From: Candidatus Koribacter versatilis Ellin345
GTDB lineage: Bacteria; Acidobacteriota; Terriglobia; Terriglobales; Acidobacteriaceae
Length of the DNA: 64,000 nt
NCBI RefSeq assembly: GCF_000014005.1
Contig: NC_008009.1
Location: forward strand, 2,046,001 to 2,110,000
Direction: 5' to 3'
Part shown: positions 35,336 through 48,992 of the stretch, piece by piece
How the letters are laid out: every line of letters begins with the position of its first letter
Numbering within the stretch: position 1 is the first letter of the stretch
Notes under the pieces: model-generated
What the model was told of the DNA's origin: nothing
What the model saw: the letters and a program-made list of their open reading frames with translations, nothing else
The model's database searches: none
Position numbers and translations under genes: made by a program

Positions 35336-36745
35336 CTATTTCTTCTTCTTTTGTTCGGCGCGCTTTTTCGTGGCCCAGCCTTCTTTGACTACCTGGCGAC
35401 CGCGGCCGATCGCCAGTGCATCGTCGGGGACGTTTTCGGTAATGCATGATCCCGCGCCGATGTAGGAACCTTTGCCGAGTTCGATGGGCGCGACGAGTGT
35501 CGTGTCGCTTCCGACGAAGACGTTGTCGCCAATTATGGTTCCAAATTTATTCACGCCATCGTAGTTGCAAGTGATGGTGCCCGCGCCGATGTTCACTCCG
35601 GTTCCGATCTCCGTGTCTCCAAGGTAGGTAAGGTGATTGGCTTTCGACCCTTTACCGACGCGAGTTTTCTTGGTCTCGACGAAGTTGCCGATGTGGGCTT
35701 CTTCACCGATGTCGCTGGCGGGACGGAGGTGGCAGTAGGGGCCAAGAAGTGCGCGCGCCGCGACCTTGGAGGAATCTACAATGCAGCCGTGGCGCAGAAG
35801 AACGCCGTCGCCGATGGTGGAGTTGGAGATCACGGTGTAGGACTTGATATGGCAGTCAGCGCCGATCTTTGTGTTGCCGAGAAGCTGGACGAAAGGCTCG
35901 ATGATGGTGTCGGGACCGACTTCGACGTCACTGTCGATCATGCAGGTTTCCGGCTTAAAAATCGAGACACCGGCCGACATGAGTTGCTGACATTTCTGAA
36001 GCCGCAAATGGGCGTCGAGCGAGGCGAGGTCCTGGCGCGTGTTGACGCCGAGAACTTCGTGGGAATCGTCAGCGCGAATGGCGACGACTTTTTCACTGGC
36101 GCCGCCGAGGATTGCAGCCATGTCGGTTAGGTAGTACTCGCCATGCGGATTGTCGGTGGTGAGCTTGTCGAGGTTGGCGAAGAGCGGTTGCACCCGGAAG
36201 GCGTAGATGCCGCTGTTGATTTCGCGATTACGCGCCTGCTCGGGCGTGAGCTGCTTTTGTTCCACGATGCGATCCACTTCGTCGGATTGTCCAGCATGCT
36301 TGCGGAAGACGCGTCCGTAGCCGAAGGGGTCGGGCGGTTCCGTGGTGAGGATCGTCATGGCGGCAGCGTGCTCGCGATGGAAGGCGAAGAGGCGCTCGAC
36401 AGTGTCGGTGCGGATGAGGGGGACGTCGCCGGAGAGGACGAGGACATCGTCGAAGTCCTTGAGCGCGTCGCGAGTTTGCAGGATGGCGTGACCGGTGCCG
36501 CGCTGCTCCTTCTGCTCTACGAACTGAATGCCGCTGGCCTGCATGGCTTCGCGGACACGGTCGGCTTCATGGCCAATGATGGCGAAGATCTGCGACGGCG
36601 GAACGACCTTAGCGGCGGCAGCGACGACGTGGTCGAGTAACGGCTTGCCAGCGATTTCGTGAAGTACTTTAGGGTGTTTCGATTTCAGGCGCGTGCCTTT
36701 GCCGGCCGCGAGAATCGCTATGGCAAACTTGCGATTGGTGGTCAT
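35336..36745 (-). CDS. glmU: Bifunctional UDP-GlcNAc pyrophosphorylase / glucosamine-1-phosphate acetyltransferase
   Basis: A 469-residue GlmU. The uridylyltransferase domain starts AIAILAAGKGTRLKSKHPKV with the GxGTRMxS/K loop, followed by EQKEQRGTGHAI and LVLSGDVPLI. The C-terminal half is a left-handed beta-helix of hexapeptide repeats (IGADCHIKSYTVISNSTIGD, VGKGSKANHLTYLGDTEIG, GAGTITCNYDGVNKFGT). It makes UDP-N-acetylglucosamine for peptidoglycan and lipopolysaccharide in the cytoplasm. ATG 36745; the Lys-rich C-terminus is normal for the family. Confidence 0.96.
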   Translation of the reverse strand: MTTNRKFAIAILAAGKGTRLKSKHPKVLHEIAGKPLLDHVVAAAAKVVPPSQIFAIIGHEADRVREAMQASGIQFVEQKEQRGTGHAILQTRDALKDFDDVLVLSGDVPLIRTDTVERLFAFHREHAAAMTILTTEPPDPFGYGRVFRKHAGQSDEVDRIVEQKQLTPEQARNREINSGIYAFRVQPLFANLDKLTTDNPHGEYYLTDMAAILGGASEKVVAIRADDSHEVLGVNTRQDLASLDAHLRLQKCQQLMSAGVSIFKPETCMIDSDVEVGPDTIIEPFVQLLGNTKIGADCHIKSYTVISNSTIGDGVLLRHGCIVDSSKVAARALLGPYCHLRPASDIGEEAHIGNFVETKKTRVGKGSKANHLTYLGDTEIGTGVNIGAGTITCNYDGVNKFGTIIGDNVFVGSDTTLVAPIELGKGSYIGAGSCITENVPDDALAIGRGRQVVKEGWATKKRAEQKKKK

Positions 36746-37796: not shown

Positions 37797-37904
37797 AGGG
37801 CACTCCGTTCCGGAGATTCTACTCTGACTTATTAGACGTGGAGCGCGGGATTGTCCGTTGCTTTTTGTTGCTCGATGATGAGAGCGGGCGAGGGTTGCAG
37901 ATGC

Positions 37905-37928
37905 AAAAAAGGCCAGCTTGCGCTGGCC
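37905..37928 (-). terminator. Intrinsic terminator at the end of the structured RNA
   Basis: Perfect 7-bp stem GGCCAGC/GCTGGCC, tetraloop, followed on the minus strand by TTTTTT. Oriented for minus-strand transcription coming from about 38140. Confidence 0.75.
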
Positions 37929-38140
37929 GGGGTAGCGGAGAGAATTTATGAGAGCGTCGGTTGACCGGAAGAAGACAGTCCCATTTGATTTGATGTCGCC
38001 GGTCACTGACCAAACCGCTGTTCCCCTGGTTTTCGGTCTCGTCAGTGAGAGCGACCTTCCAGCCAACCGATACCCGTACTAAAGCACACGAATGGCCAAA
38101 GCCGCCCGGCAGCTCAGGGCAAAGCTGCTGCTGGAAGTAG
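37905..38140 (-). ncRNA. Candidate structured RNA or attenuating leader, class unknown
   Basis: On the minus strand several stems can form: GCTGGAAG/CTTCCAGC (38130-38137 with 38056-38063), GCAGCT/AGCTGC (38109-38114 with 38123-38128), CAACCGA/TCGGTTG (38064-38070 with 37957-37963), GCGAC/GTCGC (38051-38055 with 37995-37999) enclosing GTCAGTGA/TCACTGAC (38041-38048 with 38003-38010). The segment ends in GGCCAGC-TTGC-GCTGGCC followed by six T (37928-37905). The first and third stems cross, so they would be either a pseudoknot or mutually exclusive. It is about 110 bases upstream of a minus-strand gene, so a cis-acting leader or a separate small RNA both fit. I could not match it to 6S, SRP, tmRNA, RNase P or a known riboswitch core. 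Confidence 0.5.
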
Positions 38141-38143
38141 TTC

Positions 38144-38185
38144 TTTATCAATGGGTTAGAAAATGACTAGTAACTCATTGATAAA
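38144..38185. promoter_or_regulatory. 10-bp inverted repeat at the RNA/leader promoter
   Basis: TTTATCAATG (38144-38153) and CATTGATAAA (38176-38185) are exact inverted copies with 22 bases between. The arms lie just upstream of the structured RNA; GATAAA within the left arm (minus strand) could be a -10. A dimeric regulator spanning two turns is plausible. Confidence 0.45.
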
Positions 38186-48936: not shown

Positions 48937-48967
48937 CCCACCACTCTCGTGGTGGGCTTATTTATTG
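48937..48967 (+). terminator. Intrinsic terminator after the six-TM gene
   Basis: CCCACCAC-TCTC-GTGGTGGG perfect 8-bp stem followed by CTTATTTATTG. It lies between the convergent six-TM and lactate permease genes. Confidence 0.7.
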
Positions 48968-48992
48968 CGTCGCTGCGCGACTCTCTGATTTC

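Follow-up and report, generated by a model that had tools for sequence, protein, structure and literature searches.

A predicted sigma-54-controlled structured RNA beside a secreted-protein gene in Candidatus Koribacter versatilis and its acidobacterial relatives

The window analysed here, a stretch of 64,000 nucleotides from the genome of the soil bacterium Candidatus Koribacter versatilis Ellin345 (a single contig of 5,650,368 bases), contains a non-coding gap located between a minus-strand gene for a secreted protein and a divergent gene for a bactofilin. The features recognised in and around this gap are collected in Table 1. A preliminary description of the region 37905-38140 reported a structured minus-strand segment ending in an intrinsic terminator, and both the structure and the terminator (37928-37905) have been borne out: the minus strand of positions 37903-38150 (248 nt) folds with -101.3 kcal/mol and a z-score of -3.9, a value equalled by none of 200 shuffled sequences, and the plus strand of the same 248 nt gives a z-score of -1.1. 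The extent had to be redrawn, the predicted RNA being better delimited as 37905-38073, preceded by a promoter that reaches to 38100.

Table 1. Features of the locus in window coordinates, with strand and remarks
Feature	Start	End	Strand	Remarks
Secreted-protein gene	36915	37796	-	Follows the RNA in the same orientation in every copy found
ECF-sigma-like promoter, GCAAC-N20-TCTAA	37832	37861	-	Before the secreted-protein gene, downstream of the RNA terminator
Predicted RNA, about 169 nt	37905	38073	-	Start deduced from promoter spacing; end taken as the terminator end
Intrinsic terminator of the RNA	37905	37928	-	GGCCAGC-GCAA-GCTGGCC-T6
Pyrimidine-rich linker, rod to terminator	37929	37953	-	CCTCC in some relatives, absent from the window copy
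Closing stem P1, 3' arm	37954	37971	-	Folding and covariation in alignment A3
3'-side bulge, conserved core AAUGGGACUG(C/U)C	37972	37994	-	Alignments and window fold
Upper helices and apical hairpin of the rod	37995	38055	-	Covariation and fold
Apical loop AAAACCAGGGGAACAG, closed by CCG/CGG	38018	38033	-	Nearly invariant in 29 rows
Closing stem P1, 5' arm	38056	38073	-	Folding; A3 helix columns 6-21 with 142-157
Predicted sigma-54 promoter, TTTGG-N10-GC (-24/-12 elements)	38084	38100	-	Motif present at 26 of the 29 loci
Upstream inverted repeat TTTATCAATG/CATTGATAAA	38144	38185		Might bind an activator of the sigma-54 promoter
Divergent bactofilin gene (PF04519)	38419	39027	+	E 2.8e-26; conserved neighbour

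The overall shape predicted for the RNA is a single long rod, built from a 17-bp closing stem, a bulge on the 3' side with the core AAUGGGACUG and an apical loop exposing AACCAGGGGAACAGCGG. In the fold of the window sequence, the closing stem P1 comprises 17 pairs with a single mismatch (38073-38056 with 37971-37954) and incorporates the stem 38064-38070 with 37957-37963, which had already been pointed out and is real. A one-sided bulge of 23 nt, inside which four weak pairs are predicted (37979-37982 with 37972-37975), lies above P1, and two more helical segments occur between this bulge and the apical loop around AACCAGGGGAACAG. At minimum energy, the predicted fold contains both the rod and the terminator hairpin. 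When the distinct copies of the RNA were folded separately, the same closing and apical stems were recovered in 30 of 31 copies (mean z-score -3.6), the sole exception being L042, in which the 5' part is left unpaired. The apical loop and the 3' bulge represent two nearly invariant, largely unpaired elements of a molecule whose stems covary, and they are likely to be its working parts, because the stems change while both elements stay the same. By eye, the AGG...CAG of the apical loop (38018-38033) could pair with the CUGCCU of the bulge (37972-37994) in many copies; such a tertiary contact is broken in some copies, and the near invariance of both elements prevents it from being examined by covariation. 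No conserved peptide is encoded by the RNA in the copies compared, and a leader peptide beginning at an in-frame ATG of the bulge was rejected, the corresponding peptides diverging after the first few residues and varying in length from 7 to over 40.

Upstream of the rod, the motif TTGG-N10-GC, which has the -24/-12 arrangement of sigma-54 promoters, begins 23-26 nt before model position 1 at 26 of the 29 loci, compared to expectations of 0.09 (dinucleotide shuffles) and 0.05 (flank background), using a pattern which, like the ECF pattern described below, was adjusted after looking at the loci. From the spacing usual between a sigma-54 promoter and its start, the transcript would begin near 38073, which agrees to one or two bases with the position where the closing stem opens. 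The three loci devoid of the promoter pattern, L042, L043 and L044, have the lowest scores of the 29 with the covariance model R1 (see below). These three look like divergent or partly replaced copies, possibly decaying, and both the apical loop and the bulge are altered in L043. A match to rpoN is present in 192 of 200 family genomes, G000 included; among the RNA-bearing genomes, none was found in G136 and G210, which are 87% and 90% complete, respectively. Further upstream, an unsupervised motif search on 15 chosen loci returned two palindromic motifs with log-likelihood ratios (LLR) of 49 and 57, the maxima in 12 shuffles each being 29 and 30, and the window copy is a weak match to both. 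A dyad recognised by eye exceeds shuffles by a modest margin; among eight alternative spacings, spacing 2 is raised as well. The palindromic motifs are candidate sites for an activator and, as far as can be read from these sequences, the RNA is probably switched on by a special class of bacterial activators.

At the other end, an intrinsic terminator occurs within 130 nt at 18 of the 29 loci, compared to 1.8 in shuffles, and none is recognised within this distance in 11 of the 29 copies. The latter include five of the six members of the g70 group, the sixth of which, L025, possesses a terminator about 74 nt after the rod. CCTCC occurs within the first 60 nt beyond the stem in 10 of the 29 copies, compared to 3.7 expected. 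The preliminary description had also reported a second stem, 38130-38137 with 38056-38063, crossing the one now included in P1, and had deduced from this crossing either a pseudoknot or two alternative folds. The two segments are indeed complementary, but 38130-38137 lies at least 57 nt upstream of the predicted start, beyond the promoter at 38100-38084, and 38056-38063 pairs with 37964-37971 in the predicted fold. Moreover, a 7-nt upstream complement of the 5' arm occurs in 2 of the 29 loci only, namely the window and L026. Neither the pseudoknot nor the alternative folds are supported, and the crossing of the two stems is most likely accidental.

Homologues of the RNA have been searched for at different taxonomic depths. 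Among 61 genomes (the window's own and 60 relatives), eight gave a blastn match; the window copy and L002-L005 were kept, and three matches were discarded as chance after reading their alignments. The sequences L006-L013 were left out as chance, L008 and L010-L013 being judged from their BLAST alignments alone. Two covariance models were derived, R1 from the five copies kept (window and L002-L005) and R2 from 29 copies. R1 matched 30 of 200 family genomes, including L045 (G215, E 0.04), which lacks the loops and was removed as false before all counts were made. R2 matched 33 of 398 family genomes, 32 of which are counted, G623 (E 0.00998) being excluded and G168, known by its coordinates only, being included. 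Beyond the family, the 10 matches of R1 in 150 order-wide genomes and the 8 matches of R2 in 399 class-wide genomes all belong to the own family, keeping in mind that such large searches use stricter filters and lose weak matches, so that an absence outside the family is not proven by them. An exact-pattern scan of genome contigs returned 17 stretches, among which a single one, L048, carries a non-acidobacterial title (Deltaproteobacteria); its rod is not formed, and it was read as a coding sequence and rejected. For fourteen of the 17, the contig is as long as one already hit by R1 in the family genomes. Two other sequences, L123 and L124, are taken as duplicates of L046 and L052 in view of their equal R2 scores and of the 31 distinct copies among 33 rows. 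The exact pattern is absent from viral contigs, and a distant blastn search of plasmids gave no match. So far, the RNA has been found in one acidobacterial family only.

A loss of the stems in homologues had been named beforehand as one of the outcomes that would refute the proposal; the stems are conserved, with covariation in the aggregate. In the alignment A3, fitted with R2, changes on both sides occur in 33 of 39 pairs, including 12 of the 14 pairs of the P1 helix (columns 6-21 with 142-157), and 86.6% of the cells are paired, compared to 74.3% in column shuffles and 27-50% when the partners are slid; the corresponding figures for the earlier alignment A2 were 32 of 39 and 84.1%. An alignment fitted with R2 leans towards structure, and the control consisted of a structure-blind MAFFT alignment, from which the window row was removed, read against the fold predicted for the window sequence by itself. 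This blind alignment still contains 70.6% of paired cells, compared to 57.8% in a tree-aware null, and 137 cells with double changes, compared to 62 in the same null. None of the 300 nulls reaches either observed value, and none of 300 does so for the fitted alignment. A per-pair test similar to R-scape detected no significant pair on the fitted A3 alignment and a single one on the blind alignment, a shortfall which we attribute to the low power offered by 31 copies with gapped stems. Covariation is strong in the aggregate tests only.

The gene for the secreted protein follows the RNA at 29 of 29 loci, and also at L123 and L124 and, judging from coordinates, in G168; the distance between the RNA and the gene reaches about 2.6 kb at L088. 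The protein has no Pfam family above the cut-off. Its AlphaFold2 model (mean pLDDT 85) displays a weak similarity to MucB/RseB and LolA-type proteins in Foldseek (best E 6.7e-4, TM about 0.23), which gives only a hint of a possible role in the cell envelope. Between the RNA and this gene, the motif GCAAC-N18-21-TCTAA, which we take to resemble a promoter of ECF sigma factors, is present at 24 of the 29 loci, the window included, compared to 0.04 expected; a narrower pattern with a shorter spacer was found at 15 of 29 and the widened spacer raised this number to 24. On the other side of the RNA, a bactofilin gene and a methyltransferase gene are encountered at 23 of the 29 loci, and two of the six other sequences end near the RNA.

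The secreted-protein gene is much more widespread than the RNA: it has matches, often multiple, in 197 of 200 family genomes, whereas the RNA is found in about 29 of the same 200. Among 21 loci devoid of the RNA, 13 keep the bactofilin gene beside the secreted-protein gene, and the ECF-like motif, widened by one letter to TCTAA or TCTAC, occurs in 11 and is absent in 10. This motif probably marks an ECF sigma regulon. Within a single genus, positions 390-788 of L103, which bears the RNA, correspond to 13 nt in L110, which has none. The missing segment of about 400 bp comprises the promoter, the RNA and the terminator; the ECF motif is kept, and the flanks are about 82% identical on both sides. 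Similarly, in a second genus, comparison of L107 with L111, L116 and L118 reveals that the RNA is missing between matching flanks (69-94% identity, the upstream flanks 69-73%). On a tree of 50 downstream proteins, the presence of the RNA changes 6 times, compared to a mean of 16.2 and a minimum of 11 in shuffles, and repeated loss is the simplest reading, since the location of the RNA hardly varies. Taken from these comparisons, a self-contained transcription unit fits better than an obligate leader, while being compatible with read-through, and the secreted-protein gene, with its own putative ECF-type promoter, would be a conserved neighbour of the RNA rather than an obligate target.

The region had been left unassigned to any known class of RNA, and in a search of Rfam 15 no family reached its gathering score at the RNA locus. 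At L018, L020, L024 and L030, the only match at gathering score was a tRNA located outside the RNA. Relaxed searches with E up to 10 gave only weak matches at the locus (best E 0.31); in six copies, nothing matched at E values of 0.5 or below. The RNA resembles 6S RNA (RF00013) in being a long hairpin shaped like a rod and interrupted by unpaired bases inside. However, 6S RNA displays a bubble resembling an open promoter, in contrast to the one-sided bulge of the present RNA, and this identity was rejected, the genome possessing its own 6S RNA at C1:3414874-3415065 (94 bits, the only match above cut-off); the only other 6S match in the genome, of 16.7 bits, does not lie at the RNA locus. With CsrB and RsmZ, the RNAs that sponge CsrA/RsmA, it shares GGA-containing unpaired elements, but repeated GGA hairpins were not seen by eye. 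A role as a sponge of CsrA, a commonly sequestered protein, was rejected because CsrA was found in none of the 29 RNA-bearing genomes by a search which detected it in the controls E. coli, B. subtilis and T. maritima. Acido-1 (RF01686) and Acido-Lenti-1 (RF01687) have likewise been reported as candidate non-coding RNAs of Acidobacteria (PMC2864571), and neither was matched by the RNA region in the Rfam searches. A copy of Acido-Lenti-1 scoring 54.7 bits, above its gathering score, lies at 48937-48982 (+) of the window, 11 kb from the RNA. Among the matches listed in the literature on structured or small RNAs of Acidobacteria or Koribacter, sigma-54 included, none describes this RNA, which most likely represents a previously unlisted family of a known kind.

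In this respect, the sigma-54-dependent small RNAs, especially the enterobacterial GlmY and GlmZ, which bind RapZ and regulate glmS (GlmY being activated by QseF), offer the closest working analogy. The likeness concerns a predicted sigma-54 promoter with possible upstream dyads, a short structured RNA, an intrinsic terminator and the occurrence of Hfq-family proteins in the genomes. GlmY of E. coli is described as a sigma-54-dependent small RNA of envelope homeostasis (PMC6075780, PMC9841335), and GlmZ is reported to carry a lateral bulge and to consist of three stem-loops (PMC9841335), in contrast to the one rod and terminator found here. Rfam gave no GlmY/GlmZ match at gathering score, nor at the locus when E values as high as 10 were allowed, and both structure and sequence differ, so that the resemblance is one of analogy and not of membership. 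A link to these RNAs through the neighbouring glmU gene (35336-36745 in the window) was also rejected, glmU being near the RNA at only 2 of the 29 loci, both of them in the own genus.

The preliminary description hesitated between an attenuator of the secreted-protein gene and an independent small RNA. The second of these is strengthened by the promoter, the terminator, the covariation and the absence of the whole block from some relatives, and, on these sequence comparisons, the gap appears likely to hold the gene of a structured non-coding RNA that is independent and has start and stop signals of its own. As a cis-acting leader, the sigma-54 transcript would normally end at 37905 unless the rod senses a signal that permits read-through into the gene. 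This reading, which draws on the same gene lying downstream in the same orientation in every copy found, on the 11 of 29 copies without a recognised terminator and on the near invariance of two elements that could form a binding pocket, is weakened and seems rather unlikely. An ECF-like promoter stands between the RNA and the gene at 24 of 29 loci; gene and promoter persist where the RNA is missing (the motif in 11 of 21 RNA-less loci, not in 10); the gene occurs in 197 of 200 family genomes, compared to about 29 for the RNA; and adjacency to the bactofilin gene at 13 of 21 RNA-less loci makes linkage alone weak evidence. In addition, the minimum-energy fold holds rod and terminator together, and the competing arm proposed earlier lies outside the predicted transcript. 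The lack of the ECF-like motif in 10 of the 21 RNA-less loci and the weakness of four Hfq matches weigh very slightly in favour of the attenuator and against the independent RNA.

A particular form of the independent RNA, whose likelihood overlaps with that of the more general reading, would be a scaffold or an RNA sequestering a protein, in which an RNA-binding protein would dock onto the rod and its 3' bulge, as RapZ is bound by GlmY and GlmZ. We consider this form possible but less likely than not. The sigma-54 control reported for GlmY (PMC6075780), the lateral bulge reported for GlmZ (PMC9841335) and the conserved elements that keep their sequence while the stems covary all point to it, whereas the single rod with its terminator, set against the three stem-loops given for GlmZ (PMC9841335), the lack of an Rfam match and the lack of a CsrA match in all 29 genomes argue against it. 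Chance complementarity in a non-functional gap accounts well for the outermost stem of the preliminary description; for the locus as a whole it is highly improbable in view of the homologues, the promoter, the terminator, the aggregate covariation and a fold and loops kept in 31 distinct copies.

For the independent RNA, the following working is proposed. An enhancer-binding protein, responding to some signal, would activate the sigma-54 promoter at 38100-38084, giving rise to a transcript that would run from about 38073 and stop at the terminator 37928-37905. Judging from its anatomy, the RNA would then act in trans through its two conserved elements, either regulating by antisense pairing or binding a protein. 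In the part of the family that possesses CCUCC before the terminator, this segment could block the ribosome-binding sites of target mRNAs. Hfq-family proteins, which occur in 29 of 29 RNA-bearing genomes (as strong matches in 25, and as weak ones only in G002, G062, G102 and G118), could assist the RNA.

One review table lists 4 distinct annotated small RNAs in Acidobacteria compared to 345 in Proteobacteria (PMC9029176). Few regulatory RNAs have been catalogued in Acidobacteria, and the present one adds a predicted promoter class, start, end and fold, together with two candidate surfaces. Since its parts are predicted and genomes with and without the RNA exist in the same genus, the promoter dependence, the partner and the effect of the RNA are directly accessible to experiment. 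As a tentative picture, which we consider less probable than not, the RNA may stand for a new sigma-54-controlled class, known so far from one acidobacterial family, whose covarying rod would offer two nearly invariant surfaces, AACCAGGGGAACAGCGG and CCAAUGGGACUGCC, for recognition by a dedicated protein or small molecule, an accessory regulatory device repeatedly lost as a cassette of about 400 bp beside an ECF-controlled envelope-protein gene. The RNA would also provide an example of a single locus bringing together the sigma-54 control of an RNA and the apparent ECF control of a secreted protein.
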